A DNA stretch of 64,000 nt, taken from positions 2,392,501 to 2,456,500 of the forward strand of contig NZ_CP007029.1 in the NCBI RefSeq assembly GCF_000227685.2, written 5' to 3'. The notes beneath the pieces are model-generated. The model was not told the origin of the DNA. It ran no database searches and was given only the letters and a program-made list of their open reading frames with translations. The first letter of the stretch is position 1. Each line of letters opens with the position of its first letter. Shown here piece after piece: positions 3,622 to 21,963 of this stretch. This DNA comes from Thioalkalivibrio paradoxus ARh 1 (GTDB lineage Bacteria > Pseudomonadota > Gammaproteobacteria > Ectothiorhodospirales > Ectothiorhodospiraceae). Position numbers and translations under genes: made by a program.

Positions 3622-4353
3622 GTGGTTTCCCCGACGCCTGCCGAACTCGCTTTGATCGATAGAGCGCCCACGGCGCAAGCGCATCTAGCGAGTCTCGGGG
3701 CGGCCCCGCGGATCCCCGGCCCTGACGGCCGGGCCCGCGCAGGCGCGCCGGTACCAGACCTGGACGATTGCAACGCGAGACCTGACCCCATGCCTCGTTC
3801 GCCCTGTGGCCGGCTTTCCCCTTGCGTGCCTCAATAACCGCGTGCCCTGTCGGTGGCAAGTCCATCCAGGAGCCCATCGGGGCTTCCCGAGTTCTCCGAC
3901 GTATCTCTTGCCTCGCAGCCAAGGCCTGTGGACTCCGCCGGACCTCCACACCCTCGCCCTGACGGGTGCTTCTGTGTTGCCTTCGGTGCACGTTAAAACC
4001 CTCAGCGCCCGGAGCTGAGCTTGTCGAAGCTGTACCAGCACTTCAAGGGTGCGCGATCACCCCTGCGGCCTACAGGATTCTCTGTCTACGCTTAACCTGC
4101 CTTGTTCGTCCTCCATTACTCCGCCACAGGCCCAAGACTCGATACGGGTGGATGGCTAACCCTTACCCGTCGGGGACTTTCACCCCGCAAGATACGCCGA
4201 GCTTTGCTCGGCGCGATAACGCCTAGCTCACCCGACGAAGACCGCAAAGCGGTTTTTGGTCGGGCAACGGTCAACAAAATGGGTGTCTTGCCGCTTCCAG
4301 TCGTCGCTGAACCGTCGGACCCTGGGCGCCGGGCACGTCCGCGCTTTCGACGC
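3622..4353. other. Non-coding stretch of unknown origin
   Basis: About 730 bp without a convincing gene. Open frames on both strands have arginine/proline-rich shadow composition. A palindrome containing GAGCTTGTCGAAGC (about 4016-4030) resembles the REP-like TTCGACAAGCTC repeats common in proteobacteria. Near 4218, TAACGCCTAGCTCACCCG resembles the first half of the attC at 6793 (TAACGCCTCGGCTCACCCG), but no matching second half follows. Confidence 0.4.
4241..4257 (+). terminator. Possible rho-independent terminator
   Basis: The hairpin ACCGC-AAA-GCGGT is followed by a run of five T on the plus strand. The stem is only five base pairs, so this is a weak call. It would stop rightward transcription before the leftward gene at 4354. 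Confidence 0.4.
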
Positions 4354-6797: not shown

Positions 6798-6854
6798 ACG
6801 CCTCGGCTCACCCGCCGCGCGTAGTGAGCGGTCGTATGCAGCGAGTGGTTATAC
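6793..6854 (-). repeat. Integron attC site (alpha/beta hydrolase cassette)
   Basis: Read on the minus strand, this site runs from GTATAAC (R'' core) to GTTAGTG (R' core) with an internal GCTCAC/GTGAGC hairpin. It lies 43 bp beyond the hydrolase stop codon, as expected for a cassette read leftwards. The R' core is imperfect and overlaps the inverted-repeat end of the ISNCY-type element, so this attC is less certain than those at 18703-20392. Confidence 0.55.
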
Positions 6855-6897
6855 GGTTTCTCTCGTCGCCCACGATGTGTCCTCGCGGATTTGACGA

Positions 6898-7719
6898 TCA
6901 TCGGGAATTTTTGCGAACGAACGTCCTGATTGCCTCGACGTAGGCATCCGGGTGGGTGGCGTGTGGCAGGTGACCAGCGCCAGGGAGCACGATGCTCTCC
7001 ACGTTGGGCAGCACGCTAGCAAGCTGTGCAACTACCGGAGGGAATGTCGGCGGACTTTGGTCGCCAGTCGTGAGTAGTGAGGGTGGAGAGAATCCCTTAA
7101 TCCATGCGAGATTAAAGGCAAGTTGCTCGGGATCGTTGACCTCGTCCAGGAAGGTAGGCGCATTTCCGATCAATGTCTGCTGGAAATCAGACGGGAGTTG
7201 TGCCCAAGTGTTGGGGCCGAGCGCCACCGTCTCGACGAACTGCTCCGCGGCACCGGCATGATCGCCGGAAGCAATTCGTTCGGAAACCGCACCGAACTTT
7301 TGTTCGACTTCCTTGAGCATCGGCGCCATGGCCGGATCGTCTGCGAGCAACGAGAATAGCGGCGGCTCGTGAGCGATAAGGCCCCTCAAGAGTTCGGGAC
7401 GCTCGCTGGCCATCCGGAGTGTAATTGACGCGCCAAAGGAGTTTCCGGCCACCCACGCTGGGGCTAGCCCCAGGTTCTCGATCAGCGCTGCAAGGTCGGC
7501 GACATCTTCCCGGACGCTTCCTTGCGCGGTTAGACGCTGACTTTGGCTGTGACCACGTCGGTCGTAGACAAGCACTTGGAACGACTCTGCCAAACTTGGA
7601 ACAACCAAGTCCCAGGTGTTGTGCGACGCCCAAGACCCGTGCACGAAGACGAGAGGTGTGTCACCCGTCCCGTGAAGCTCATAGAATAGCTGCACGCCGT
7701 TAACATCAATGGTCGGCAT
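6898..7719 (-). CDS. Alpha/beta hydrolase, integron cassette gene
   Basis: A 273-residue alpha/beta hydrolase-fold enzyme. The oxyanion-hole segment HGSWAS is near residue 28, the nucleophile elbow GNSFG is at about 91-95, a candidate acidic residue lies in TTGDQSP near 217, and the catalytic His is in GAGHLPH near 250. The start at 7719 is supported by a GAAAGGAG ribosome binding site. Relatives include haloperoxidase- and esterase-like hydrolases; the substrate is not predictable. It reads away from intI like the other cassette genes and has an attC-like site behind it. Confidence 0.85.
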   Translation of the reverse strand: MPTIDVNGVQLFYELHGTGDTPLVFVHGSWASHNTWDLVVPSLAESFQVLVYDRRGHSQSQRLTAQGSVREDVADLAALIENLGLAPAWVAGNSFGASITLRMASERPELLRGLIAHEPPLFSLLADDPAMAPMLKEVEQKFGAVSERIASGDHAGAAEQFVETVALGPNTWAQLPSDFQQTLIGNAPTFLDEVNDPEQLAFNLAWIKGFSPPSLLTTGDQSPPTFPPVVAQLASVLPNVESIVLPGAGHLPHATHPDAYVEAIRTFVRKNSR

Positions 7720-8097
7720 ATCTTCTCCTTTCTTCCAGGGCGTAGCGGTGCCACGTCGTCATCGGCCCGTAAAACAGATTAGCGTTTATCCGGCGTGCGC
7801 AGCATGGCGGATAAACGTCTGTTGGACTGGGCCGCCCATGAATTAGCACACACGTTCATGTAAGGGGATTGTATTCAGCGTACGCCGGGATGGCGGGTCG
7901 AAGGAACCCGGGATCGAGCCTCGGGGCAATCCTTGCGTCCGTTTGTGATCATGGTCGGGCTCCCTGGAGGCTCCGATTTCTTGTACGGTAGCCCCGTTTT
8001 CTGCTGAGATCCAGTCGCATGCACAGACGGGCCAGCGCCGGCCCTTTTCCAAGGAGCGACGCAAGGGAGCCGGCGGTTCTTACTCGTCAGGCCGAGG
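7720..8097. other. Junction between hydrolase cassette and IS91-type element
   Basis: No gene is evident in these 378 bp. The hydrolase leader with its ribosome binding site occupies the first 20 bp. The region includes the strong hairpin at 7783-7817 and should contain the left terminus of the IS91-type element. A base-perfect cassette 5' core (GTTATAC, as predicted from the attC at 6793) is not found; GTTTTAC at about 7769-7775 on the minus strand is the nearest match. Confidence 0.45.
7783..7817. repeat. Long hairpin, candidate IS91-type element terminus
   Basis: CGTTTATCCG at 7783-7792 is the exact reverse complement of CGGATAAACG at 7808-7817. Pairing extends imperfectly into the 15-base spacer. 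It lies downstream of the IS91-type transposase gene, the side where elements of this family carry their replication origin end (oriIS). The assignment is inference. Confidence 0.45.
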
Positions 8098-9231
8098 TCA
8101 TCGTCGGTGCTCCGGGATGTCGGTTCGGTTCGGTCGCGGACGCAGTACCGTGAGCACGCACACCCGACCGACCCGGCATCGGGGACAGGGGTAGGTCGCG
8201 GGCTCAGACCGGCCTTCCGAGGCATCCCTCGTGTCGGGTCGCGGTGCGTTCAACGCGCTGCGGATGCGCGGAAGCTTGGTCCGCCGGCAGCGGTTGGCCA
8301 GGAACCCGTAGTGCCGCACGCGCATGAGTCCTTTGGGCAGGATGTGCAGCAGAAAGCGGCGCACGAACTCCTCGCCTTCGAGACGCATCACCTTGGGTCG
8401 GTGGTGATCGCGGTAGTCGGTGTAGCGGAAGGCGACCTTCCTCGCGTCGATGTCCAGAATGCGCGCGTTGCGGATCGCGTTCCGGTGGGTGTAACGCGCC
8501 AGGTAGTCGACCACCGTGGGGGTGTGATCGAGACAGTCCTTGGCGTAGACCACCCACTCGGTGGCCATCAGCCGGTCGAGTACCGCGTCGATCTCGCCCG
8601 GCCGTGTGACCCGGTGCAATACCCCGTCGTCGGCAGCCCGGCGCAGGGCCGCGACCATCGCCCCGCGAAAGCGCCGGGACAAGGCCCGGACCGGGAACAG
8701 GGTCTGGCCCCGGCTCGGCTTCCAGTGGCCGTCGGCCAGGAGGGCCCCGCCGGGGATCAGGCAGTGCAGGTGCACGTGCTGGCTCAGGTTCTGGCCCCAG
8801 GTGTGCAGCACCGCGGTCATGCCCAGTTCGCCACCGAGGCGGCGGGGGTCCTGGCCGAAGCGGCGCAGCGTGTCCCAGGTCACCTGGAACAACCGCCGGT
8901 AGAGCACCTCCGGGTGCAACTGCACCCAGCCGTTCAGGGCATGCGGCAGGGTGAACACCAGATGGAAGTAGCGCACCGGCAGCAGCGCCTCCTGCTGGCG
9001 CTCGGCCCAGAGCCGGGTCGCGCGGGTCTGGCACTGCGGGCAGTGCCGGTCCCGGCAGCCGTGATACCACGGCTGCTCCCAGCCGCAGGCCTCGCACTGC
9101 ACCTGCATCCCGCCCAGCGCCTCGGTGCGGCAGGCCTTCAGGTGCTGGCACACTCGGCGCCGGTGGCCGTCCAGCGTCTCTTCGTGCAGGAACCGGTAAA
9201 GAGCCTGTTGCAGCGTCGCCGGTTCAGCCAT
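8098..9231 (-). CDS. IS91 family transposase
   Basis: A 377-residue HUH-type rolling-circle transposase. The N-terminal zinc-finger segment has Cys clusters at about residues 46-70 (CEACGW, CRDRHCPQC). The HUH metal motif appears as HVHLHC near residue 155, and the candidate catalytic Tyr lies in LARYTHRNAI near residue 245. The start at 9231 overlaps the end of the recombinase gene by 8 bp, implying translational coupling. The frame is intact, so the protein could still be made, although the partner recombinase is broken. Confidence 0.88.
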   Translation of the reverse strand: MAEPATLQQALYRFLHEETLDGHRRRVCQHLKACRTEALGGMQVQCEACGWEQPWYHGCRDRHCPQCQTRATRLWAERQQEALLPVRYFHLVFTLPHALNGWVQLHPEVLYRRLFQVTWDTLRRFGQDPRRLGGELGMTAVLHTWGQNLSQHVHLHCLIPGGALLADGHWKPSRGQTLFPVRALSRRFRGAMVAALRRAADDGVLHRVTRPGEIDAVLDRLMATEWVVYAKDCLDHTPTVVDYLARYTHRNAIRNARILDIDARKVAFRYTDYRDHHRPKVMRLEGEEFVRRFLLHILPKGLMRVRHYGFLANRCRRTKLPRIRSALNAPRPDTRDASEGRSEPATYPCPRCRVGRVCVLTVLRPRPNRTDIPEHRR

Positions 9232-9539
9232 GACGCACCGCCAATCCCGCCACCAGATCCACGGGTCCGCCCGCCTCCGGGCGACGTTCGGGCACCCAGT
9301 GCAGATAGCGCAGGGTCGACTGCAGGTGCCCATGGCCAAGAACCCGCTGCAGGCGATGCACCAGCAACCCCGCCTCGAGCTGATGCGTGGCATAGGCGTG
9401 GCGCAGCCCATGAATGCCACCGATCTTGGCGATGCCCGCCGTCGCCTTGGCCCGACTGAACACGCGCTGGGCACTGCTGATGCTCAGCGGTGTACACCGG
9501 TCCCGCCCCGCCGGGAACAGCCACTCGGTCGGCCGGAAC
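9224..9539 (-). pseudogene. Tyrosine recombinase, 3' fragment (split by IS66)
   Basis: This fragment encodes the catalytic C-terminal part of a tyrosine recombinase: HGLRHAYATH (Arg and His of the RHxxH box), LGHGHLQSTLRY with the nucleophile Tyr, then a short tail ending in RHG. Joining it to the fragment at 13754-14303 with one copy of the 8-bp duplication removed gives an uninterrupted 285-residue frame (858 bp with stop). Its TGA lies inside the start of the IS91-type transposase gene. Confidence 0.88.
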
Positions 9540-9570
9540 GTAAGCGTCCGGGGAACCCCGGGTTCTCCGC

Positions 9571-10724
9571 TTACAGTTCCGGCGCCGGGATTTTCAGATC
9601 CTCGGGCGTGAGCCGATGCGGCAGCAGGGCCGCGATGCCGCCCGGGGTGGTCACCGCCGGCAGGGTCTCGAACAGGTAATGCAGGTAGGCGCGCGGCTCC
9701 AGGCCGTTGGCCTTCGCCGTCTCCACCAGGGTGTAGAGCATCGCACTGGCCTCGGCACCGCGCGGGCTGCCGCTGAACAGCCACGCCTTGCGCCCCAGGG
9801 CGAATGGCCGGATCGCGTTCTCGGCCAGATTGTTGTCGATCTCGAGGTGACCGTCCTGCAGGAACGTGATCAGGATCGGCCACTGCCTGCGGGCATACTG
9901 GATCGCCTCGCCCAGCAGGCCCTTGGGCAGCACCTTCTGCGCCTTGTCGTCGAGCCAGGCCTGGATCTCATCCAGGATCGGCTGCGACTGTTCCCGCCGC
10001 ACCGCGTGGCGGTGTTCCGGGGCCGTGCCGCGGATCCGGCGCTCGACCTCGTAGAGCTTGCCGATCAAGGCCACGAAGGCATGCGCGGCCCCGGTCTTGG
10101 TTCGACTGTTGGCCGCCTCGACGGCCTTGCGCCGGACGTGGGCCCAGCACCCCATGTGGCCCCGGATGCCCTCTTTCTCTGCCAGCGCGTGATAGCCCGC
10201 ATAGCCATCCGTCTGCAGATAGAACCGGAGTTCCGGAGGCCGGCCGTCTCCTTCCGGGAACAGGAAGTCGATCGGCACCTCGCCGCTGCGGCTCGGGGCG
10301 TACTGGAACCAGATCACTGGTCTTCCAGACGGCCCACCGCGGTAGACCCACATATAGGACTTGGTGGTGTTGGCCCGGCCCGGTTCATCGAGCACCTGCA
10401 CCGGGGTCTCGTCGATCTGCAGCACCGGGCCTTGGGTCAGGTGCTGCTTCAAAGCGGCCAGCACCGGGGCGAGCGGGGTGGCCAGTTGTACGATCCAGCC
10501 GGACAGGGTCTGGCGGGAGAGCTCGATGCCCTCGCGGGCGAAGACCTTCTCCTGGCGGTACAGCGGCAGGCCATCGACGAACTTGCCCGTAACCACCTCC
10601 GCGAGCAGCGAACTGTGCGCGATGGCTTTCGGCAGGATCTGCGCCGGGCGGGGTGCGATCCGCAGCCCCGCCTCGGCGCCGGGTACGTCGGCGTGGATCG
10701 GCGCGTACTTGGCGCGCTTGATCT
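9571..10724 (-). pseudogene. tnpC: IS66 transposase tnpC, 3' fragment
   Basis: This part encodes most of the IS66 DDE transposase: the conserved KYAPIHADVPGAE start region, LQIDETPVQVLDEPG, YLQTDGYAGY, MGCWAHVRRK and DNNLAENAIRPFALGRK, ending with the C-terminal IS66 segment (AYLHYLFETLP). It was separated from its first 176 codons by an IS3-type insertion at the GATCT target. Removing that insertion and one target copy restores a 558-residue frame. Confidence 0.9.
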
Positions 10725-10802
10725 CCCCCTCTGTCAGCATAGAAGTCCGCTGGATTGGACGCAGTAAACTTAACCCTCGAGGGGGCGGAGAGAGCGGATG
10801 GA

Positions 10803-11299
10803 ATGCCACGGTACAGCGAAGAGTTCAAAGCCAAGGTGGTCGAGAAGATGATGCCGCCCAATGCCCGGGCGGTGGCCGACGTGCACCGGGAGACGGGGGT
10901 GTCGGAACCCACCCTGTATGCCTGGCGCCGGGAGTTCCAGGACCGGGGGCATGCGGTGCCGGCGGATCCGGCGAACCCGGAATCCTGGAGTGGCCGGGAC
11001 AAGCTCGCGGTGGTGATCGAAACCGCCGCGCTGAATGAGCAGGCGCTCTCGGAGTACTGCCGGTGCAAGGGTCTGTATCCCGAGCAGATCGAGCGCTGGA
11101 AGGAAGCGGCCATGGCCGGCAGCGCCGATCCCCAGCGGCTGACCCGGGACGAGCGTGCCGCCTGGCAGCAGGAGAAGAAGCGCGTGCGCGACCTGGAGCG
11201 CGAGCTGCGCCGGAAAGAGAAAGCCCTGGCCGAGGCAGCCGCCTTGCTGGTGTTGAAAAAAAAGCCCAGGCGATCTGGGGGGACGACGAGGACGCATGA
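10803..11299 (+). pseudogene. IS3 family OrfA, frameshifted in a run of A
   Basis: OrfA is the helix-turn-helix partner of the IS3 transposase. It starts at the ATG at 10803 (MPRYSEEFKAKVVEK), carries an HTH region near residues 20-40 and a coiled segment near 130-150 (RVRDLERELRRKEKALAE). At eight A (11256-11263) the continuous frame runs into unrelated sequence up to 11531. In the -1 frame the normal OrfA end AQAIWGDDEDA follows, with a TGA overlapping the orfB start as ATGA. Most likely one A was lost. Slippage on A-AAA-AAG could still yield some full OrfA. Confidence 0.75.
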
Positions 11300-12372
11300 T
11301 CACGCCCGAGACCCGTGCCTTGGCGCTGGACCTGATCGACGAGGCGGTCGCCGCCGGTGCCCGGCTCACCCCGGCCTGTGCGGTCCTCGGCCTGACGCCG
11401 CGCACGCTGCGCCGCTGGCGCGCCCTCGCCGGCAGCGACACCGGGCTGGTGGACCGGCGCACCTGCACCCCGCGGGTGCCGGCCAACCGCCTGAGTGCCG
11501 AAGAGCAGGAGACGATCCTGACGGTCTGTAACGCGCCGGAGTACCGTAGCCTGCCACCGACCCAGATCGTGCCGCGCCTGGCCGACCAGGGCGTGTACAT
11601 CGCGTCCGAGGCGAGCTTCTACCGCGTGCTGCGGGCCCATGACCAGGTACAGCGCCGGGGCCGGGCGGCGGCCCCACGGCAGGTGCCCAAACCGGAGGGG
11701 GTCTGCGCGACTGCGCCCAATGTTTGCTGGGCGTGGGACATCACCTTCCTGGCCTCTTCGATCCGGGGGCAGTTCTACCGCCTGTACCTGATCGAGGACG
11801 TCTTCAGCCGCAAGGTCGTCGGCTGGGAGGTGCACACCGAGGAAAGCGCCGAACACGCCAGTCGCCTGATCGAACGCGCCTGTCTCGCCGAGGGCGTCCA
11901 TCGCCCGGGCCTGGTGCTGCACTCGGATAATGGCAGCCCCATGAAGGGTGCCACCATGCTCAGCACCTTGCAGCGCCTGGGTGTCGTCCCGTCCTTCAGT
12001 CGCCCCTCGGTGAGCGACGACAACCCCTACGCGGAAAGCCTGTTCCGGACCTTGAAATACACGCCGGCCTTTCCGCCTCAGCCGTTTGCCAGCCTCGCCG
12101 ACGCCCGCGCTTGGGTCGCGCGCTTCGTCCACTGGTACAACGAGGAACATCGCCACAGCAAGATCCGCTTCGTCACCCCCGGCCAGCGTCATCGCGGGGA
12201 GGACATCGCGATCCTGGCGCACCGGCACCGGGTGTACCAAGACGCCCAACGCGCCAACCCGACACGCTGGTCGCGGCACACGCGCAACTGGACACCGATC
12301 GATCACGTCTGGCTCAACCCACCGAAGGAACATGCCCAAACGCCAGCCCTGATGGTCGCTCAGGCGGCATGA
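11296..12372 (+). CDS. IS3 family transposase OrfB
   Basis: A 358-residue integrase-core transposase. The first 110 residues hold an HTH region (LTPRTLRRWRAL). The DDE residues are in CWAWDITF near 141, LHSDNGSP near 213 and NPYAESLFRTLK near 250, with spacing typical of retroviral-type integrases. The start ATG at 11296 overlaps the expected OrfA stop by 4 bp. The frame is complete, but a fused OrfAB would need the damaged orfA to be read through. Confidence 0.9.
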   Translation: MITPETRALALDLIDEAVAAGARLTPACAVLGLTPRTLRRWRALAGSDTGLVDRRTCTPRVPANRLSAEEQETILTVCNAPEYRSLPPTQIVPRLADQGVYIASEASFYRVLRAHDQVQRRGRAAAPRQVPKPEGVCATAPNVCWAWDITFLASSIRGQFYRLYLIEDVFSRKVVGWEVHTEESAEHASRLIERACLAEGVHRPGLVLHSDNGSPMKGATMLSTLQRLGVVPSFSRPSVSDDNPYAESLFRTLKYTPAFPPQPFASLADARAWVARFVHWYNEEHRHSKIRFVTPGQRHRGEDIAILAHRHRVYQDAQRANPTRWSRHTRNWTPIDHVWLNPPKEHAQTPALMVAQAA

Positions 12373-12401
12373 AAAAGCGGACAACTACGTTGACAAACAC
12401 C

Positions 12402-12929
12402 GATCTTGATCACGTAGTACTGCTTGGGCAGCACCCCCAGCTGCTCGGACTCGTCGAAGCCGATCCGCACGTGGGTCTCGGCGAGCGCCGCCTGTTCCGC
12501 CTCGGACAGGTCCAGGATGCGCTCCACCCGCGGCAGGTGCGCCGGCAGCGGCTTGCGCTTCGGGGTCTGCTTCTTGGGTTCGGTACGTTCCGAGCGTGGC
12601 GGCGCCTTGGCTTCGGCGATCTGGGCGTCCAGTTCCTCGATCAGGACGTTCAGCTCGGCTTCGTCAAAGAGCGCGAGCTGCTCCCGCGCGACGCGATCCG
12701 CCTTCGGTCCGAAGCGCTGGTGGCGCAGCAGATCCAGGCGCTCCAGGAGGAGCTCGATCTTGCGGTCGAGCTTATCGATGGTCTCGTTCCGCACCCGAAG
12801 TTCTGCATCGCGTGCCTGCAACTCGGCCTCGAAGCGCTGTTCCCGCGCGACCTTCTCGGCCGCCATCCGGGCGATGATCGCGTGCAGCTCCGCGGGGTCC
12901 TTGGGGAGCTTCTGAGCGGCTTCGGGCAT
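12402..12929 (-). pseudogene. tnpC: IS66 transposase tnpC, 5' fragment
   Basis: This encodes the N-terminal part of the IS66 transposase: the coiled-coil leucine-rich region (AELQARDAELRVRNETI), the RHQRFGPKADR segment and LGVLPKQYYVIKI, where the IS3-type element interrupts. As it stands the frame continues 14 codons into that insertion and stops at 12360. The continuation of the gene is at 9571-10724. Confidence 0.9.
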
Positions 12930-12977
12930 ACCCGGAAGTTTACCAAAACCCAGCCAATAACGCTGCAGAATCAGCGA

Positions 12978-13331
12978 CTAAAGCAGAGAAAAAGACGCCT
13001 TGAGATGGCCCTGCACGGCGGTCGGATCCAGGCCCTCCAGCAACCACTGCAGTTCGCGCACCGACAGTTCAACCGAACTCTGCTCGGTGCCCGCCGGCCA
13101 CCAGAAGCGCTGCTTCTCCAGGCGCCGGTACCACAGCCAGAAGCCGTTCCGGTACCACACCAGCACCTTGATCTTGTCCCGCGCCCGGTTGCAGAACACG
13201 AACAGGTGCGAGGAAAACGGATCCGCCTGCAGCACGTCCTCGACCCGCGCCGCGAGACCGTCGATCTGGCAGCGCATGTCGGTGTGGCCGCGCGCCAGAT
13301 ACACCTTGGTGTGCGCGTCCAAGGCGATCAT
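12978..13331 (-). CDS. tnpB: IS66 accessory protein TnpB
   Basis: A 117-residue protein with the typical IS66 Orf2 sequence: MIALDAHTKVYLARGHTDMR start, FSSHLFVFCNRARDKIK in the middle, WYRNGFWLWYRRLE and the conserved FWWP. The ATG at 13331 overlaps the tnpA stop by 4 bp, so it is probably translationally coupled. TnpB is required for IS66 transposition in studied members; its exact activity is not settled. Confidence 0.92.
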   Translation of the reverse strand: MIALDAHTKVYLARGHTDMRCQIDGLAARVEDVLQADPFSSHLFVFCNRARDKIKVLVWYRNGFWLWYRRLEKQRFWWPAGTEQSSVELSVRELQWLLEGLDPTAVQGHLKASFSLL

Positions 13332-13666
13332 GCGCGCTCCCGCAGCACACCCAGCACCCGCTGCAGCGTCTCGGCCGAACACCCCGGCCCGATCTCCAGA
13401 CGCAGACCACCGGCCAGCACCAGCGTCAGATCGGCAGCCCGCGTCCCGGGCGCGTCATCGACCAGGGTGACCGGCACGAACTCCGGCACCGGGGCCGCCA
13501 CCGGCGACTCGGTCCGGGGCTCCGGCGCCAGCAGTCGCCGCCAGCGCTGCAGGCTGGCCACCGAAATCCCGCGCCGCTCACAGTACGCCTGCTGCGACAG
13601 ACCGCTGCGCTCCCAGCCCCGCACCAGCCGCTCCCACTCCTGCCGACTGCGCCGCACGCCCCACAT
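13328..13666 (-). CDS. tnpA: IS66 accessory protein TnpA
   Basis: A 112-residue IS66 Orf1 protein. The N-terminal helix-turn-helix (GLSQQAYCERRGISVASLQRW) is followed by a Pro/Ala-rich linker and a beta-strand segment (LTLVLAGGLRLEIGPGC), the family pattern. It is the first gene of the IS66 operon and overlaps tnpB by 4 bp. The predicted role is DNA binding. Confidence 0.9.
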   Translation of the reverse strand: MWGVRRSRQEWERLVRGWERSGLSQQAYCERRGISVASLQRWRRLLAPEPRTESPVAAPVPEFVPVTLVDDAPGTRAADLTLVLAGGLRLEIGPGCSAETLQRVLGVLRERA

Positions 13667-13753
13667 GATCCCGCCCTCCGGTTATCCTGGACTGGCGGCT
13701 ATCATCCGGAGGCCGCCGGGGCGGCGGAAGAACGTATTTCGCAGGACGCTTAC

Positions 13754-14303
13754 GCCGGAACAGCACCCAGTACCGCCGCAACTCCGTCAACAGCGTCGGC
13801 GACACCGGCACCAGCCGGTCCTTCGCCCCCTTGCCCTGCTCGACCCGTAGCAGACCGCGCTCGCCGTCGATGTCGCGCACCCGCAACGCCACCACCTCGC
13901 TGACCCGCAGGCCACAGGCGTAACGGATCTTCAGCAACATCCGGTGCTTGGGGTTCGGGCACGCGTCCAGGAGCCGCGTCACTTCAGCCCGGGTCAGCAA
14001 CTCCGGAATCCTCTGCGCACGCTTGGGTACCACAAAGGGCACGTCAAAGGCCGGCCACTGCAACACCTTCAGGTACAAAAAGCGGATCCCGTTCCGGTGC
14101 AAACGGCAACTCGCCCCGGACAGCTCCCGTTCCAGCGCCAGGTGCCGGAAATACTGCTCAAGCTCAGGAACGCCCAGTTCCGCCGGAGAACGTCGGTGGA
14201 ATCGAGCCAGGTCCCGTACTGCCCACAGGTAACTGCGTTGCGTGCGCTCGGCAAAACCACGCTGCCGCATGGCATCGACCATCTGCTGCCGTAACGGTGT
14301 CAT
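13754..14303 (-). pseudogene. Tyrosine recombinase, 5' fragment (split by IS66)
   Basis: The gene starts at the ATG at 14303 behind a GGAGAGG ribosome binding site. It encodes the SAM-like core-binding domain (RTQRSYLWAVRDLARFHRR) and the start of the catalytic domain with the first Arg in YACGLRVSEVVALRVRDID. It stops making sense at 13754 where the IS66 element begins. The rest is at 9224-9539. A recombinase directly upstream of an IS91-type transposase is a known arrangement in that family. Confidence 0.88.
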
Positions 14304-14404
14304 CGTCCTCTCCTTGTCATTGCGACCCACAGGGGTCACCAAGGAGTGTTGACGATCGGTGTTGCCTCAGCGCCCGGCGAAACGGGCTGCCGCGAAGCGG
14401 CTTA

Positions 14405-14474
14405 GTTCAACGACAGCGCTCAGCCGAGAGGAGCCGCATCGCGGTCCGTCGTCGGCTGGAGCGCCTTGTTAGCC
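14405..14474 (-). repeat. Integron attC site behind the CPBP protease gene
   Basis: Read on the minus strand the site runs from GGCTAAC (R'') through paired arms (CTCCAGCCGAC and TCGGCTGAGCGC) to GTTGAAC (R', a GTTRRRY match). The 70-bp length fits attC sites. The CPBP gene ends inside it at 14420. The IS91-type element begins directly beyond its R' core. Confidence 0.8.
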
Positions 14475-15163
14475 GCCGCCATCACAAATGCTGAAAAGAT
14501 AACGACATCCTGGACGAAGTGAATAAACCACGCCCAAAAGATACCGTGCGTTTCAATAACAGACTTAGCAAGGAGCCACCCCAGAAAACCTGCCATGATG
14601 GCACCAATCAAGCCATTTGGCATGCCGCGCAGGTGAGGAGCGCCAAAGGCTATCGCCGAAATCAGCATGATATATCCGGGTTCAATTCTGCCATACAGCG
14701 GCACAATGACTCCCAGCCTATAAACCACTTCTTCAGAGAAGGAATTGGTCAGAGAAAACAGCAGCACCCAAGGAAGATAGCGGAATAGCTGTTTCCAAGA
14801 CCCCCCTGAAGTTCTGAATTGTAGATAAACAAATACTGTCGTGCCAAGCGTGATTACAAATAAAAAAAGAACTCCTAACACCAACCAAGATGTGCCCTCG
14901 CCAATCCCAAGCAATGAAACACCTCTTGTCGCAGCAGTGACTTCGCCAGGAGCAAGAAAAATGGACAGGTTTTCCTTGTTAATCAGCAGAAGGACGAGCA
15001 AAACCAATAACGCCACGACAAACAACAGTGCCTGAAATTTTAGCTGAATGTTGACATACTGCAATTCGCTTACTGAAAACGTCGACCTTGCCGCGACACC
15101 ACCAAGATTGAGAATGACAGCCGTTGCAAGACCAACCATCCCCAGCGATAAAACAAGTTCCAT
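14420..15163 (-). CDS. CPBP family intramembrane metalloprotease
   Basis: A 247-residue membrane protein with about seven helices. The Abi/CAAX-protease motifs are present: SEEVVYR near residues 147-153 (the EExxxR box), a His in FGAPHLRG near 177, and HFVQD near 225. It starts at the ATG at 15163 after an AAGGAAT ribosome binding site. Members include prenyl-protein proteases and bacteriocin-immunity proteins; the role here is unknown. The last 16 residues (NKALQPTTDRDAAPLG) are encoded by the attC site, as often seen in cassette genes. Confidence 0.82.
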   Translation of the reverse strand: MELVLSLGMVGLATAVILNLGGVAARSTFSVSELQYVNIQLKFQALLFVVALLVLLVLLLINKENLSIFLAPGEVTAATRGVSLLGIGEGTSWLVLGVLFLFVITLGTTVFVYLQFRTSGGSWKQLFRYLPWVLLFSLTNSFSEEVVYRLGVIVPLYGRIEPGYIMLISAIAFGAPHLRGMPNGLIGAIMAGFLGWLLAKSVIETHGIFWAWFIHFVQDVVIFSAFVMAAANKALQPTTDRDAAPLG

Positions 15164-15256
15164 TCTGATTCCTTTTCTGGCGAACGCGACCCTCAACCGG
15201 AAGCCTGAAGCAAAGCGCTGAAGGAGAGCAGCTTTTGGATACCCGGTTTAATGGGC

Positions 15257-15676
15257 TTATTGCGCATATTTGACTTCAATAAACCACTTGGGCTGCATGG
15301 CATCAAAATCTTGTCTGATATTCGATGGCAGGTAACCAGCCGAATCCAGCACAAAAGGCTGGCCATATACGCGCTTGAAAACAACCCAGTGCCAAAAGTA
15401 TTTTCCTTCTTCCTGGTGATGTTTGATCGAGAGTAACGCCAGGTCAGGCAGCGCGTCCCAGGATTCAAATGGGGTTTCTTCATCAGCGGTATCAACTCCT
15501 GCACTTAGCAACATGCGTCGGACATATTCGGTTTCAGACCAAAGCACCTTGTCCGAAGCATGAATACCCATAGCATTGGCTACAGCCTTCATCTCTGAAT
15601 ACGTCTTACCCAGAATGTTGGCTGCCGCTGCGATTCCACATCCGGTAGTTTCTTCTTGTACTACTGATTTGAGCAC
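15257..15676 (-). CDS. C39-like cysteine peptidase domain protein
   Basis: A 139-residue protein starting at the GTG at 15676 behind AAGGAGGG. The catalytic Cys lies in QEETTGCGIAAAANIL near residue 13, the His in KYFWHWVVFKR near residue 95, and an Asp in PFVLDSAGY near residue 108, matching the Cys/His/Asp order of papain-like C39 peptidases. It has no transporter domain or signal peptide, so it is a stand-alone cytoplasmic peptidase-fold protein. GC content is clearly lower than in the flanking chromosome, in line with its cassette origin. Confidence 0.68.
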   Translation of the reverse strand: MLKSVVQEETTGCGIAAAANILGKTYSEMKAVANAMGIHASDKVLWSETEYVRRMLLSAGVDTADEETPFESWDALPDLALLSIKHHQEEGKYFWHWVVFKRVYGQPFVLDSAGYLPSNIRQDFDAMQPKWFIEVKYAQ

Positions 15677-15753
15677 TGCGCCCTCCTTGATGAAAGATGT
15701 AAGAAAAATAGGCGGATCGCACCCAGCCCCACAGGGCAAATTGCTTTACTTGA

Positions 15754-16197
15754 CTATGCGCCACATGTGTAGACATACCATGCGCTTTTCTTTGCACCAA
15801 GGGAGTCATAAAGCTTTTGAGCCGAATGATTGTCCTGGGCTGTAAGCCATTGAAGTCTGGCTGCGCCATGTTCCAGGGCAAACTCCAAGCAATGATTGAT
15901 CAGACACTTACCTATCCCCTTTCCTCTATGGGCTGGCAATGTATAAAGGTCACTCATAACACCGACACGTGCCGGAATGCTGGATACATACGTAAAATAT
16001 ACAGTCGCGAATGCCACGGCGTCTCCGGAACTGCTCCTGAACAAGAAAAGGGAGCCGTTATTTCCATTTTCGCTGAACTGCGAGAAGAACTCCCTATTCT
16101 TTTCATCATCAATCTCTTGAACCTTATAGAACTCCTGATATTTTCTAATCAGAGGGAGCGCTTCTTCGATGTTCTTAATTGATACTGCTTCTATCAT
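15754..16197 (-). CDS. GNAT family N-acetyltransferase
   Basis: A 147-residue acetyltransferase. The acetyl-CoA-binding signature is visible as DLYTLPAHRGKGIGKCLI near residues 82-99, with the R-G-K-G-I-G pyrophosphate loop, followed by the C-terminal WLTAQDNHSAQKLYDSLGA segment. The ATG at 16197 overlaps the amidase stop by 4 bp (ATGA), so it is probably translated by coupling. The substrate is unknown. Confidence 0.88.
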   Translation of the reverse strand: MIEAVSIKNIEEALPLIRKYQEFYKVQEIDDEKNREFFSQFSENGNNGSLFLFRSSSGDAVAFATVYFTYVSSIPARVGVMSDLYTLPAHRGKGIGKCLINHCLEFALEHGAARLQWLTAQDNHSAQKLYDSLGAKKSAWYVYTCGA

Positions 16198-17696
16198 TTG
16201 ACGGTTCCTCTAACTGCAAAATTTTCGCCACTGCGGCTCTCGTCCTGCGATATCACCCCAGGAGGTGGAACATAGCGCCCGGTAATCGCCTCGATTTCCC
16301 GGCAGATGGACAGTAACCGCTCATCCTGCCAGCGCTTCCCGATAAACTGAAGACCGACCGGCAGCCCTTGTTCTATACCCGCAGGCAACACCACAACCGG
16401 ACTCCCGGTCAGGGAGAAGGGTGTGGTCATGCTTACCATGGCCTCCAGCCAGGGCAAGCGGTGCTCATCAAAGCGGATGGCCGGCAACGGGTTGAGGCCC
16501 TTCCCGGGTACGTGAGGGTGGGCCACGGTGGGAGCCACGGGGCATAGCCAGGCATCCCAGTGATCCAGAAACATCTCCAGTTCGATGATCAACCGCTCAC
16601 GCAGATTCAGGGCATCATTGTAGCGCCGCAGGCTGAAGCGTAGCCCTTTGATGAAGTAGCCGGCGAGTCGCTGCGAGGGCGGCAACAATCGTCCGGCCAG
16701 CGTCAGGCCCCTTCGCTCAATCCCGGGCATCCCCAGCCCGACTTCACTCCCCGCGACGATACCGTACGCGTACCAAGCACGGTCAAAGTCGAACCCCTCC
16801 GGTTTGCGGCGCTCCACCTCCACCCCGCGCGCCTTCAACACCTCGACGGTTCGCGCCAGCACGTCTGTGGTGCGTCGGCACATCGGCAGACCTGCAAAGT
16901 CATCCCACCAGGCGATCCGTAGCGGGCGTTTCCGCAAGACCGTCGACATCTGGGGCAGTGTTGGCACCTCGGTATCCTCACCATCCGGCCCATCTAGGTG
17001 CTTGAAACCCAGTTGTAGGCTATCCACATCCCGCGCGAGCAACCCAAATGAGAGGCAGTGGCGCACACTGCGCTCGCCATCGGGCAGGTGGGGAATGTGC
17101 CCGGTGCGCGGCAGCCGGTTCTCGGTGGCCTTGAATCCGGCCACGCCGCAGAAGGCGGCCGGAATTCGAATCGAGCCGCCGATATCGCTCCCCAGATCCA
17201 GGCAGGAGAACCCCATCGCCACTGCGGCCGCACTGCCGGCGGAGCTACCGCCCGGCGTGCGGCTCGGATCCCAGGGGTTATTGGTGCGGCCGAACAGCGG
17301 ACTGTCGCAGTGGGGAGTACCGGCCAGCCGGGGCAGATTGGTCTTACCCAGCAGAAGGCCGCCGGCTTCGCGCAGGCGCGCCACCAGGGTGGCATCCCGC
17401 ACCGGCACGTAATCAGCCAACGGTGGATGGCTGCTGGTAGTGCGCAGCCCGGCCGTGGCGAAGGCATCCTTGATGGTAAGCGGCAGGCCCGCAAGGGGTG
17501 GCAGTCTCCCCTGCTCCCGCAACTGCTGCAACGCCTGCGCCTGCTGCAGTGCGCCCGCTCGGTTCAGGGTGACGACCGCATTGACGGTGGGATTATACCG
17601 CTCAATGTGCTGCAGGTATCGCTCGGCAACCTCGGTAAAATCCAGCTGACCTGAATGCAGCTGTGCCAACAACTGGCGACTGGTAGGCATCAGCAT
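16194..17696 (-). CDS. Amidase (amidase signature family)
   Basis: A 500-residue amidase-signature enzyme. The Ser-cisSer-Lys triad is visible: Lys in LPLTIKDAFA near residue 78, and the Gly/Ser-rich signature PGGSSAGSAAAVAMG with DLGSDIGGSIRIPA near residues 148-175. I start it at the ATG at 17696 behind CAGGAGAG; an open extension upstream overlaps the AraC gene and lacks family character. It lies 52 bp after the AraC-type regulator and overlaps the GNAT gene, so the three look like one operon. The substrate could be an amide, nitrile-derived amide or amino-acid amide. Confidence 0.88.
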   Translation of the reverse strand: MLMPTSRQLLAQLHSGQLDFTEVAERYLQHIERYNPTVNAVVTLNRAGALQQAQALQQLREQGRLPPLAGLPLTIKDAFATAGLRTTSSHPPLADYVPVRDATLVARLREAGGLLLGKTNLPRLAGTPHCDSPLFGRTNNPWDPSRTPGGSSAGSAAAVAMGFSCLDLGSDIGGSIRIPAAFCGVAGFKATENRLPRTGHIPHLPDGERSVRHCLSFGLLARDVDSLQLGFKHLDGPDGEDTEVPTLPQMSTVLRKRPLRIAWWDDFAGLPMCRRTTDVLARTVEVLKARGVEVERRKPEGFDFDRAWYAYGIVAGSEVGLGMPGIERRGLTLAGRLLPPSQRLAGYFIKGLRFSLRRYNDALNLRERLIIELEMFLDHWDAWLCPVAPTVAHPHVPGKGLNPLPAIRFDEHRLPWLEAMVSMTTPFSLTGSPVVVLPAGIEQGLPVGLQFIGKRWQDERLLSICREIEAITGRYVPPPGVISQDESRSGENFAVRGTVK

Positions 17697-17748
17697 GAGA
17701 CTCTCCTGCCAATTGAGTAAGTACTGATACCGTATGCGTTTTCGCCTG

Positions 17749-18633
17749 TCAGGGCTTGAAGAAACGCGACATACCGGAGCCGGTGGCCAGCGCCCCAGGT
17801 AGAATACGATAGACCCAATACTCCGGGTCCTCTTCAACGAGTCGCCCCAGTCTGGCTGGCGGCACTCCGATTAACTGTTTGTGATCACGACTCAGATGGG
17901 CCTGATCGGCGTAACCTAATTCAGCAGCCAGCACGGCCAGCGGTGTTGAAGCTGGAGCCTGCCCATGACGGGCAAGCAGCAGTGCCATGCGCGCCAGCCG
18001 CTGATACGCCTTGGGGGACAGACCAAACTGCTGCAGGAAGCGTCGCTCGATTTGGCGCAGTGACAGACCGTAGTTCTGTGCCATTTCCCCAGGGGCAGTA
18101 TGCAGCAGAGCATCGCGCATCCAACGGGTATCACTTTCACCGAAGCGACCTCGACGCGACGCGGCTTGTCGAATCCAACCACGTAGACCCTCTTCAAGTC
18201 GCTGCATCATCATCTGCGGCGCCGCAGTAGCCATCTCATCAACGACGGCGTGCAGCCAACGGCAACCAAGTCCAGAGACCTCCTGTCGCCGATCGGCTAA
18301 GTTCTCGGGTGCGGCATCAAACAGGATGTCCCAACAACCGGGCGCAAAAACCACGACCAGGCAGCGAAACTGCCCCTCGGCCACCATTGTCGCTGAACTT
18401 CTCTGCGACCCCGAAACAAAGAGCTGCGGAAGCGGCACAATCCGGCCGGATTCGGCATCCAGCAGGCTCGCCTTCCCACTCAACACGAGGGTCAGCGTGG
18501 CCGTCGCTGAAGAGGGCAAGTGAGTGACCACTGGTACATCAGATGCTGCACCGTGACTCTGTACATAGAAGTCAATCCACGCCCTTAGATAAGGCGATGG
18601 CAATAAATACTTCTCACCGCTCAACTGAATCAT
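17749..18633 (-). CDS. AraC family transcriptional regulator
   Basis: A 294-residue regulator. The N-terminal 150 residues are a sensor-like beta domain. The C-terminal AraC/XylS double helix-turn-helix spans about residues 165-270 (AQNYGLSLRQIERRFLQQFG and LAAELGYADQAHLSRDHK). It is the first gene of the block transcribed leftwards and probably controls the adjacent amidase and GNAT genes. The cassette 5' boundary (18708) lies only 75 bp upstream of its ATG. Confidence 0.88.
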   Translation of the reverse strand: MIQLSGEKYLLPSPYLRAWIDFYVQSHGAASDVPVVTHLPSSATATLTLVLSGKASLLDAESGRIVPLPQLFVSGSQRSSATMVAEGQFRCLVVVFAPGCWDILFDAAPENLADRRQEVSGLGCRWLHAVVDEMATAAPQMMMQRLEEGLRGWIRQAASRRGRFGESDTRWMRDALLHTAPGEMAQNYGLSLRQIERRFLQQFGLSPKAYQRLARMALLLARHGQAPASTPLAVLAAELGYADQAHLSRDHKQLIGVPPARLGRLVEEDPEYWVYRILPGALATGSGMSRFFKP

Positions 18634-18702
18634 TTTTCAAGAACCCTATGAGGGTACAAGATACCACTGGTTTTTCCCCTATCGCAACGTCAGTTCATAG
18701 TC

Positions 18703-18750
18703 AGCTAACGCCGCGCTCACCGGCTTATCCGGTGCAGCGCATGGTTATAC
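18703..18750 (-). repeat. Integron attC site, cassette 3
   Basis: Minus strand: GTATAAC (R'') then arms GCGCTGCACCGG and GCCGGTGAGCGC, which pair with one extrahelical G, then GTTAGCT (R'). R'' is the exact reverse complement of the 5' end of its own cassette (G/TTATAC at 19576/19575). At 48 bp it is a short attC. Crossover is expected between 18709 and 18708. Confidence 0.9.
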
Positions 18751-18751
18751 G

Positions 18752-19555
18752 CTAACTCTGAGACGGGGCAGCAGCACTGCCTGCCAATATGCCACCGTCA
18801 ACATTCAACTCAATCCCCGTTACATACTTTGACTCATCAGAGGCCAAATACAGAGCAGCGTATGCAACATCTCGTGACTCACCCATTACTCCCAGCGGGA
18901 CATCAGCAGCTACCGCTTCAATGGCTTTTATACGCGATTCACCTTCCCCCAACATTGCATCCCACATAGGAGTCAAAATGGCACCAGGATGAATAGAATT
19001 ACACCGTATTGGATACTTCTGCTGCGCACAATACAAGGCGACTGTTTTTGTATGGTTTCGCACCGCCGCTTTACTGGCAGCATACCCTGCTGCGCCAGGA
19101 ATGCCGACAATGCCAGATCGTGATGAGATATTCACTATGCTTGCGGACTTCGATGTTTTCATTAGTCTGATAGCATATTTGCATCCAAGCGCAACGCCAT
19201 CTGAATTCGTTTGATGCACCATATGCCAACTATCAAGATCCAAGTTCTCCGGATCATGCGGCCCTTCCGATTCAAAAAACCCAGTTATCCCGGCGTTGTT
19301 TACAAGCACATCCAATCGACCGAATTGTTTGCTTATATATTCGCCAACTCGCTCCCAGTCTGATTCGCTGGATACATCCAGATGCTGATAGTTGGCATGA
19401 TCGCCAAGCCTGGAGGCTATCTCCTTTCCAGATTCATCGTTAATGTCAGATATAACAACAGACGCCCCTTCTTCAACAAAAAGCTCGGCTGTAGCCTGGC
19501 CGATCCCTCTTGCTGCCCCTGTAATTAAAACAGTTTTTCCTTCAAGTCTTGGCAT
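18752..19555 (-). CDS. Short-chain dehydrogenase/reductase, cassette 3 gene
   Basis: A 267-residue classical SDR oxidoreductase. The cofactor motif TGAARGIG is near residues 12-19, NNAG near 86, and catalytic Ser and Tyr-x3-Lys in ISSRSG...GYAASK near 143-160; the C-terminal VTGIELNVDGG strand is also typical. The Asp in VISDIND after beta-2 suggests NAD(H) preference. The gene starts 15 bp inside its cassette behind AAGGAG and ends 2 bp before attC, so it has no promoter of its own in the cassette and depends on upstream transcription. Confidence 0.9.
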   Translation of the reverse strand: MPRLEGKTVLITGAARGIGQATAELFVEEGASVVISDINDESGKEIASRLGDHANYQHLDVSSESDWERVGEYISKQFGRLDVLVNNAGITGFFESEGPHDPENLDLDSWHMVHQTNSDGVALGCKYAIRLMKTSKSASIVNISSRSGIVGIPGAAGYAASKAAVRNHTKTVALYCAQQKYPIRCNSIHPGAILTPMWDAMLGEGESRIKAIEAVAADVPLGVMGESRDVAYAALYLASDESKYVTGIELNVDGGILAGSAAAPSQS

Positions 19556-19569
19556 GAAATCTCCTTATC

Positions 19570-19656
19570 GTATAACGTCATCGATAAGCCGCGCCGCCAC
19601 CGTCTCTGGAATCTTGCGCGGCTGCATTCGGCGTCGGCTTGATCAGTTGGTTAGGC
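19570..19656 (-). repeat. Integron attC site, cassette 2
   Basis: Minus strand: GCCTAAC (R'') at 19656-19650, arms around CTGATCAAGCC and GGCTTATCGATG, then GTTATAC (R') ending at 19570. R'' is the exact reverse complement of the cassette's 5' end (G/TTAGGC at 20336/20335). Length is 87 bp. The preceding gene reads into it and ends at 19578. Confidence 0.9.
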
Positions 19657-20291
19657 GCGACCTTTTGGACTTCCGCGGGACTGAAACTGTCGGCTAGTGC
19701 TTGATAGAATTGTGTGCCTGCAAGATAAACGCCACTGCCGAATAGCGAGACTGCAATACTACCAGCTGCCAACCACCCCCCGACAGAAAGGTTCTTGACA
19801 AGCCAGGGGATCGTCACTTTCTCGGGTTTTGCTAATGGCAAGTAATGCTTTATCTTTTTTCCAACGCCTTTTGAAAAATATTCCCATTCATCCTTGGATA
19901 TAAGTAGGTCGCCAATACTGACGCGCCAAGGACAGTTTAATAGCCACTTTCCTTTCTTGGGGTCAAGATCTCTAGTCTCGTACAAAGCTCTGACTAGGGT
20001 CTTTCTGTTTGGGGCCTCGTTGGTTACGATATTTATGACGTCTTCAGGCCCAATATATTTGAGTTTCAGCGCCGGCCCATCTCCACCAACTAATACCATT
20101 GCCTCGTTAGTCCGCGTCCGAACGCCCTTACCCCCGTCTTCTGTTACGAACTCAGAGGTTTCCTCGTAATTCCTCGGCGCATGCTCCAGAACAGAAAAAA
20201 CAATCGTTCCGGACATGCCCAGCCGGAGAATCTGGTCTTTGCTTAGACCTGATTTCCCTGCAATCTCTTCAATAGTGAAATAGGCTAGCAA
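19578..20291 (-). CDS. Cassette 2 protein with HTH-like start and membrane helix
   Basis: A 237-residue protein of unknown function. The N-terminus looks like a short helix-turn-helix (FTIEEIAGKSGLSKDQILRL). The middle is a mixed alpha/beta domain, and one transmembrane helix lies near residues 168-190 (SVGGWLAAGSIAVSLFGSGV). The last about 25 residues (starting APNQLIKPTPNAAA) are translated from the attC site and are probably not part of the functional fold. GC is lower than in the chromosome. I do not recognise the family; a membrane-anchored DNA-binding protein is one possibility. Confidence 0.75.
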   Translation of the reverse strand: MLAYFTIEEIAGKSGLSKDQILRLGMSGTIVFSVLEHAPRNYEETSEFVTEDGGKGVRTRTNEAMVLVGGDGPALKLKYIGPEDVINIVTNEAPNRKTLVRALYETRDLDPKKGKWLLNCPWRVSIGDLLISKDEWEYFSKGVGKKIKHYLPLAKPEKVTIPWLVKNLSVGGWLAAGSIAVSLFGSGVYLAGTQFYQALADSFSPAEVQKVAPNQLIKPTPNAAAQDSRDGGGAAYR

Positions 20292-20329: not shown

Positions 20330-20392
20330 GCCTAACGCCAAGCTAAGGGGCGCGCAGCGAAGCGGAGTGTCCCTTTGAGCGACGTGTTATGT
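20330..20392 (-). repeat. Integron attC site, cassette 1
   Basis: Minus strand: ACATAAC (R''), arm CGCTCAAAGGGAC, loop, arm GCCCCTTAGCTTG, then GTTAGGC (R'). R'' is the exact reverse complement of the cassette's 5' end (G/TTATGT at 20851/20850). Length is 63 bp. Cassette 1 is therefore 20336-20850. Confidence 0.93.
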
Positions 20393-20398
20393 TTTTGT

Positions 20399-20827
20399 TT
20401 AATTTGCATTCAAGTGCTTAAAGTCTTTCCCGCACAAATCGGTATTTGTTACCAGTTTCCTCGATAAGAGATCATTTCTAATTGATGCAACAAAATCGCC
20501 CATTGCCTTTTCTTTCACCTCATCCGTTGACGGGTTAGATGCATAAACTGTATTTAAAAACTCATACCCTTTTAAAATGACATCGTCCGGACAATATAAC
20601 CAACACCGATTTAGCTGGGTAAGAAATTCCGATTTTAGTTCATTTGCGTTGTTTGCCCCGACATAAAAGCCTTTAAGGCAACGCAGTAATTCTCTGTAAC
20701 TTTCCTCTTTCCTTTGATATTGCTCCCAAACTCGTTTACGCCATTCGTTAACGAACCAAGCGATAATTGCCCCAAAAAGAGGGGCAGCAAACTTCCAAAA
20801 GTCTACTGATCCAAGAATTTCAAACAT
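20399..20827 (-). CDS. Cassette 1 protein, unknown function
   Basis: A 142-residue protein starting 23 bp inside the first cassette. A hydrophobic segment at about residues 8-28 (VDFWKFAAPLFGAIIAWFV) is a likely membrane anchor, followed by a mostly helical, charged soluble domain (WRKRVWEQYQRKEESYRELLRC). The gene is AT-rich compared with the chromosome. As the cassette nearest attI it would be the most recently acquired and best transcribed. I do not recognise a function. Confidence 0.75.
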   Translation of the reverse strand: MFEILGSVDFWKFAAPLFGAIIAWFVNEWRKRVWEQYQRKEESYRELLRCLKGFYVGANNANELKSEFLTQLNRCWLYCPDDVILKGYEFLNTVYASNPSTDEVKEKAMGDFVASIRNDLLSRKLVTNTDLCGKDFKHLNAN

Positions 20828-20905: not shown

Positions 20906-20987
20906 CCCGGCACACGCAGGGTAGGGTCCTGTTTTTCGGGGCCTGGCCCCAGGATACGTGGCGGTAACTCAGGGAGGAAACGTGGCC

Positions 20988-21963
20988 ATGGAAACGCCCC
21001 GTCCACCGCGGCTGCTCGATCAGGTTCGCGAGCGCTGCCGTGTCAAGCATTACAGCCTGCGCACCGAGCAGGTGTACGTTCATTGGATTCGCCGGTTCAT
21101 CGTGTTTCACGGGAAGCGGCATCCGCGCGAGATGGGCGCTCCGGAGGTGGAGGCGTTCCTCAGTCACCTTGCGGTACATGAGAACGTGGCTCCTTCCACA
21201 CAGAATCAGGCGCTGGCGGCGATCCTGTTCCTGTATCGTGAGGTACTCGGAACGGACCTCCCCTGGCTCGACGGCGTAACACGCGCGAAAAAGCCGCCAC
21301 GGGTGCCGGTCGTGCTCACCCGCGAGGAAGTGCGTGCGCTCCTGGCGCGCCTTGATGGTGTCCACTGGCTCTTGGCGAGCCTGATGTACGGGTCGGGGGC
21401 TGCGGCTGATGGAGGCTTTGCGTCTGCGGGTCAAGGACGTGGACCTGGAACGGCGCGAGATCACGGTGCGCGAGGGGAAGGGAGCAAAGGACCGGCGCAC
21501 TCTCCTGCCTGCATCGCTGATCGAGCCGCTGCGGGTGCAGCAAGGGCGTGTTCGGCTGCTGCATTCGGCCGACCGCTCCGAACGCCTCGCGCCCGTGTGG
21601 CTGCCACATGCGCTGGAACGAAAATACCCGAACGCTGGGCACGAACTGGCCTGGCAATTCCTGTTTCCGGCAGCGCAGCCTGGAGTCGACCCGCGAACGG
21701 GGGTCAGGCGAAGGCACCATTTGCACGAATCTGCGATACAACGTGCCATCCGCTCGGCCGTGCGCGCGAGCGGAATTCTGAAGCCGGCCAGCAGCCACAC
21801 GTTGCGGCATTCCTTTGCGACCCATCTGCTCGAGGCGGGCTACGACATACGCACCGTGCAGGAGCTGTTGGGGCACAAAGACGTTTCGACTACGCAGATC
21901 TACACGCACGTGCTCAATCGTGGCGGGCGCGGGGTGCTGAGTCCGTTGGATGCAGGCGGATGA
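20988..21963 (+). pseudogene. intI: Integron integrase IntI, frameshifted
   Basis: The gene encodes a tyrosine recombinase that would recombine attI and attC sites. Features are the core-binding domain (YSLRTEQVYVHWIRRF), the IntI-specific insert ([12 protein letters not shown]...FPAA), the [10 protein letters not shown] box and the nucleophile Tyr in [11 protein letters not shown], which together separate IntI from other recombinases. A run of five G at 21395-21399 breaks the frame within [17 protein letters not shown]; with four G the frame would be continuous (about 325 residues). The start is the ATG at 20988 behind GGGAGGAAAC; a GTG at 20982 is also possible. Orientation is opposite to the cassettes, as expected. 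Confidence 0.93.

Follow-up and report, generated by a model that had tools for sequence, protein, structure and literature searches.

Integron cassettes usually hold one gene, and chromosomal integrons also have multi-gene cassettes, the two-gene toxin-antitoxin cassettes of Vibrio being an example; these Vibrio pairs are taken as functional operons with one attC. Fused cassettes, such as blaGES-1/aacA4, are known from class 1 integrons, and in the portions of a report (PMC4670013) and a review (PMC8876359) drawn on here they are described as complete frames enclosed by a single core site and a single attC after all or part of the upstream cassette's attC had gone; the disappearance of the stem-loop is believed to promote translational coupling. 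For the fused pair, the same portions of the former source report one message and a joint movement deduced from inverse PCR (PMC4670013). Here we describe a block of five genes which we interpret, with reasonable though far from full confidence, as a fused integron cassette, i.e. former cassettes whose internal attCs have been lost. Fused cassettes having already been published, the block so read is a longer, chromosomal, five-gene example of a rare known kind. Like the class 1 fusions as these sources present them, it has complete frames (five in this case) between one core site and one attC. The examples given there each join a pair of resistance genes and come from class 1 integrons or related mobile elements, whereas the block lies in a chromosomal array, appears to join at least two, probably three, former cassettes to an AraC-amidase pair, and has two sites seemingly decayed by mutation where the published ones were truncated. 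It shares with the Vibrio toxin-antitoxin cassettes the possession of more than one gene per cassette, but differs in that former cassette boundaries appear to lie between its genes.

The window, i.e. the whole stretch of 64,000 nucleotides that was analysed, covers positions 2392501-2456500 of the one-contig, 3.76-Mb genome of Thioalkalivibrio paradoxus ARh 1 (NZ_CP007029.1); positions below and in Table 1 are counted within it. A chromosomal integron extends leftward from a divergent integrase gene, with its cassettes on the minus strand, and a covariance model (R1) finds five attCs in the window, all minus and scoring 25-45 bits. The integrase gene beside the array is frameshifted (its pieces, scanned apart with TIGR02249, give 167 bits for 20973-21389 and 284.5 bits for 21412-21963), so the array is probably static now. 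The integrase of another genome of the same genus (G013) is likewise split, at nearly the same place in the model (about 124-129). Read leftward, the array consists of two cassettes with Pfam-less ORFs, the SDR cassette, the five-gene block, insertion sequences, and then an alpha/beta-hydrolase cassette. The region beyond the block (6792-14404) holds the hydrolase gene (6898-7719) with its attC (6792-6854, 31.1 bits, minus), and IS66-type and rve-type insertion sequence genes sit between block and hydrolase cassette. Directly past the closing attC of the block lies the N-terminal part of a tyrosine recombinase (13578-14342, minus; TIGR02249 117.7 bits, below cut-off) that seems to be cut by an IS66-type element, and no second full copy was found in the genome. 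Matches to a group II intron (Rfam RF02005) occur on the minus strand at 3922-4180 (107.8 bits) and 34227-34436 (55.3 bits).

Table 1. Features of the five-gene block and of the neighbouring part of the integron (window positions).
Feature	Position	Strand	Evidence or remark
Proposed fused block, core to core, 4298 bp	14405-18708	-	R1 matches at both ends, none inside
attC of the preceding SDR cassette	18703-18750	-	25.4 bits minus vs 7.3 plus
AraC-family regulator gene	17749-18633	-	Pfam HTH_18 2.6e-12
Amidase gene	16194-17696	-	Pfam Amidase 9.5e-91
GNAT acetyltransferase gene	15754-16197	-	Pfam Acetyltransf_1 2.8e-18
C39-like cysteine peptidase gene	15257-15676	-	Conserved Cys/His/Asp, structure model
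CPBP membrane protease (Rce1-like) gene	14420-15163	-	Pfam Rce1-like 4.4e-10
Intact attC closing the block	14405-14474	-	37.8 bits minus vs 6.6 plus
Relic 5' core of GNAT cassette, ATTTTGC (GTTATGC in G040)	16216-16222	-	G040 DNA homology starts here
Relic R'' over GNAT stop, GCATAGT (GCATAGC in G040)	15753-15759	-	5/7 identical to GCATAAC
Relic 5' core of C39 cassette, ATCTTTC (GTTATGC in most inspected cassette copies)	15692-15698	-	Leader homology fixes position
Probable decayed attC, C39/CPBP, 85 nt	15179-15263	-	Assignment partly inferred
Parts of 15179-15263: R'' relic	15256-15263	-	
Parts of 15179-15263: arms	15243-15255 and 15190-15200	-	
Parts of 15179-15263: R' relic GTTCGCC	15179-15185	-	
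Integron integrase gene, frameshift giving two reading-frame pieces	20973-21963	+	TIGR02249
First cassette: ORF 20399-20827 without Pfam match, attC 20330-20392	20330-20827	-	attC 36.7 bits
Second cassette: ORF 19578-20291 without Pfam match, attC 19570-19656	19570-20291	-	attC 44.8 bits
Preceding cassette: SDR gene	18752-19555	-	Pfam adh_short_C2 2.6e-60

The initial annotation placed five genes between two attCs in about 4.3 kb, and this is borne out, attCs being detectable by model at the ends only. Judged by their R1 scores on the two strands, both flanking attCs are real and have the orientation of the genes, and the R' core of the SDR attC, GTTAGCT (18703-18709), forms the 5' start of the block. 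The coupled starts noted at the same time are also present, the amidase stop and GNAT start overlapping as ATGA (16194-16197). Promoter and terminator scans of 14300-18900 remained at chance level, and the one match returned by PADLOC, likewise at chance level, was discarded.

R1 was trained on 33 integron attCs taken from other genomes of the family and class; no attC of the window was included. Inside the block (14500-18690, filters off) its best match reached 4.3 bits (E 4.6), and at 15180-15260 and 15677-15753, where a degenerate attC had been suspected, the best scores were -0.4 and 0.4 bits, so that no attC is found there by model and no clear attC appears between the genes. In a locus (L168) with 22 attCs called by fold scan, R1 missed all 22 with default filters (E ≤ 0.5) and recovered 14 of them whole, at 7-19 bits, with filters off; given this incomplete sensitivity, a very divergent attC could be present in the block as far as the model alone goes. 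A relaxed scan for folding R''/R' pairs, which detected only three of the five window attCs, was negative at three of the four junctions and showed a single weak hairpin at the remaining one, C39/CPBP. Its top match in the block was a 79-nt hairpin within the amidase gene, with a per-base fold equal to that of a real attC, which we take as chance because R1 does not support it; a stricter fold scan gave 15148-15252, on the opposite strand. Plain folding energy was dropped as an attC test, as three of the five window attCs have z of -0.1 to -0.75. Relics are found at the expected places for GNAT and C39, and less clearly for CPBP.

Six of 273 other genomes of the class contain relatives of the GNAT protein (E ≤ 1e-25). 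The G202 gene begins at (GT)TATGT, at a contig end, and has its stop within ACATAAC, with a weak attC after it (11.2 bits, E 0.11) and a strong one further on (35.5 bits), while in G123 a 13.7-bit attC (E 0.019) abuts the GNAT start; no cassette signs were seen in the inspected flanks of the remaining four. From this evidence, weaker than that for C39, GNAT is probably a single-gene cassette elsewhere too. The open frame in G202 (L172:9486-10285, minus) is 235 aa long, against 147 aa for the window protein. In G040, which belongs to the same genus, the GNAT DNA is 86% identical to that of the window, and the homology ends at cassette boundaries, beginning at GTTATGC and stopping about 25 bp beyond the stop codon, over an R''-like heptamer; no attC lies beside the gene. 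Reading insertion boundaries from the homology of the G040 flanks was abandoned, since the flank segments that have homologs do not reach the gene. The relic core in the window is identical at five of seven positions, which 0.9% of random heptamers equal, and the GNAT R'' looks damaged in both the window and G040. Plasmids (1e-25) and viral contigs yielded no GNAT protein. Upstream, amidase homology to G123 ends at about residue 480 of 500 and the final amidase codons are read from the GNAT leader, which accounts for the stop/start overlap; the attC at this junction is gone. Downstream, the relic R'' and the relic core of C39 (15753-15759 to 15692-15698) enclose an attC-sized spacer of 68 nt.

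Searches for the C39-like gene gave 77 loci, and elsewhere it is a single-gene cassette: an attC (R1, E ≤ 1) is flush with one or both ends of the gene in 13 loci, starting at the stop in 9 and ending at the leader in 8, and an attC lies within 3 kb in 22. Immediately upstream of the gene, a core heptamer is present in 23 of the 77 loci (vs 0.5% of random stretches), an R''-like heptamer covers the stop in 24, and both are present in 16. Most of the loci have no visible cassette boundary; members of the family are present outside integrons as well. Inspected cassette copies mostly share the leader GTTATGCATTAAGG, and their stop codon is supplied by R'' (GCATAAC). In the window the leader stands in register and agrees at 11 of 15 positions with the closest of eight cassette leaders, an agreement reached by a fraction of 0.0003 of 15-mers taken at random from the GC-richer window; the relic heptamers themselves are less distinctive, the core being identical at 3/7 positions (equalled by 22% of random heptamers) and the R'' at 4/7 (5.9%). 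While the protein has no Pfam match at E ≤ 1, its Cys, His and Asp are invariant in an alignment of 35 sequences, and a structure model (pLDDT 93) finds the PCAT1 (E 1.7e-4) and ComA (TM about 0.6) peptidase domains as best Foldseek matches; by fold and Cys-His-Asp residues, the fourth gene is a predicted C39 peptidase. A search of plasmids with the protein at 1e-15 returned one record (72.6%). This stand-alone C39-fold family without a Pfam match recurs as an integron cassette and also away from any visible integron, in Pseudomonadota as well as in other phyla (L013-L089).

Between C39 and CPBP, the weak inverted repeat that had been reported near 15190-15250 exists and sits at the expected L''/L' place. 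A hairpin fold constrained between AAC and GTT is equalled by 2 of 1000 dinucleotide shuffles, and among 2000 stretches taken at random from the GC-richer window, 139 reach the same score; the plain fold of 15173-15264 is no better than shuffles (z 0.07). The spacer has a suitable size: in nine C39 copies that carry an attC of their own, the corresponding length is 84 nt in five and 52-88 nt in four. We consider 15179-15263 to be probably an attC relic and not a working site. Upstream of CPBP, GTTCGCC matches the complement of that gene's own R'' at 6/7 positions, a match as good as that contained in 3.2% of random 40-mers. Since CPBP relatives were found neither in 273 other genomes of the class (1e-15) nor in plasmids or viral contigs, it is this one heptamer that suggests that CPBP may be a former cassette.

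The regulator and the amidase are probably a native pair, and no attC relic was seen at their junction. AraC relatives were absent at E ≤ 1e-25 from 273 other genomes of the class and at 1e-15 from 298 other genomes of the phylum, and while plasmids gave four records at 29-31% identity, viral contigs gave none. The amidase (1e-120, 209 other genomes of the class) has a single relative, in G123, with no R1 match in the 19 kb around it; no cassette relative of either gene was found in the genomes searched. A variant that overlaps our preferred explanation holds that this pair is chromosomal DNA that entered the array without an attC of its own and that only GNAT, C39 and CPBP are former cassettes, and we give it somewhat less than an even chance. 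It would fit the absence of cassette relatives, the truncation of the amidase into the GNAT leader and the composition, GC3 being 0.59 in AraC and 0.74 in amidase vs 0.48 in GNAT, 0.46 in C39 and 0.51 in CPBP, with a step at the amidase/GNAT junction (near 16300). The AraC side, however, begins cleanly and in a cassette-like way at the SDR attC core, and GC3 is 0.37-0.50 in the three upstream cassettes but reaches 0.64 in the more distant hydrolase cassette, so that GC alone cannot tell what was a cassette.

The initial annotation left it open whether the block was one large cassette or several with lost attCs, and pointed to a near-match between its 5' core and distal R''. The near-match is real (GTTAGCT vs GGCTAAC, 6/7) but uninformative. 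Among 85 cassettes of other arrays, each shorter than 1.5 kb and delimited with 129 of 147 R1 matches (the 18 dropped were partial-model, opposite-strand or weakest), a cassette's own R'' agrees with its 5' core at all seven positions in 63 and shows one mismatch in 11, whereas unrelated pairs agree fully in 10% and with one mismatch in 27%, so that 37% of them do at least as well as the block. Its single mismatch therefore speaks, if anything, slightly against one origin, and on these frequencies the match was rejected as evidence for one original cassette. That a five-gene operon acquired a single attC and was captured whole is, in our judgement, improbable; in its favour are the bounds of one core and one attC, which differ at 1/7, but C39, and probably GNAT, have cassette boundaries of their own elsewhere, and composition steps occur inside the block. 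As to origin, then, it is the several-cassette half of the proposal that stands (supported for C39, probable for GNAT, weaker for CPBP), and the one-cassette half does not, although at present the block may act as a single cassette. Even less credit, indeed very little, goes to ordinary neighbouring genes of a chromosomal operon with core-like heptamers by chance: single heptamer matches are weak, as this would have it, but attCs of a genuine array enclose the block, C39 is found repeatedly as a cassette, and a leader homology like that of C39 is seldom met by chance. No copy of the block was found in 46 other genomes of the family (best six candidates per genome scored).

On the fused-cassette reading, GNAT, C39 and CPBP, or at least GNAT and C39, would once have been adjacent single-gene cassettes behind the AraC-amidase pair. 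The attC between amidase and GNAT would have been lost by deletion, the amidase frame then running into the GNAT leader, and those at GNAT/C39 and C39/CPBP would have been lost mainly by mutation, leaving attC-sized spacers and damaged core sites; this order of events and the mode of loss of each site are our reconstruction. The five genes may be co-transcribed, and excision of the whole block as one 4.3-kb circle by an active integrase would still be conceivable. Its relics range from deleted through heavily decayed to lightly decayed, and the block suggests, stepwise, how separate cassettes of a chromosomal array can become an operon-like chain as attCs are lost. It is a much more tentative thought, and on balance a doubtful one, that chromosomal integrons can build operons in this way, attC decay welding cassettes behind a regulator into a mobile, co-regulated five-gene unit that would travel as a single cassette, which would be operon birth outside antibiotic resistance. 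As a scan for attCs only would call the block one large cassette, counts of genes per cassette can hide fusion.

Other integrons, in which the same block might have been intact, and fixed places outside integrons, in which it might have been conserved, had both been raised earlier; no further copy came to light in the genomes, plasmids and C39 loci covered. In the family genomes, matches comprised GNAT in G040 and short ones of 31-180 bp, mostly in the amidase region. DNA searches of plasmids gave no whole block, 20 records with short amidase-region matches and one C39-region match; E. coli genomes gave no block (3761 bases of it queried), and none of the other block genes lies beside C39 in the 77 loci. 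A limited literature search found no published report of the block. Its size is unusual, as only 2 of 99 cassette intervals outside the window are 4 kb or more (median 664 bp; retaining the 18 dropped R1 matches would shorten some intervals). In integrons of two relatives, gaps between attCs of 8.7 kb (L119:9343-18018) and 8.2 kb (L115:8582-16803) are further candidates for multigene or interrupted blocks.
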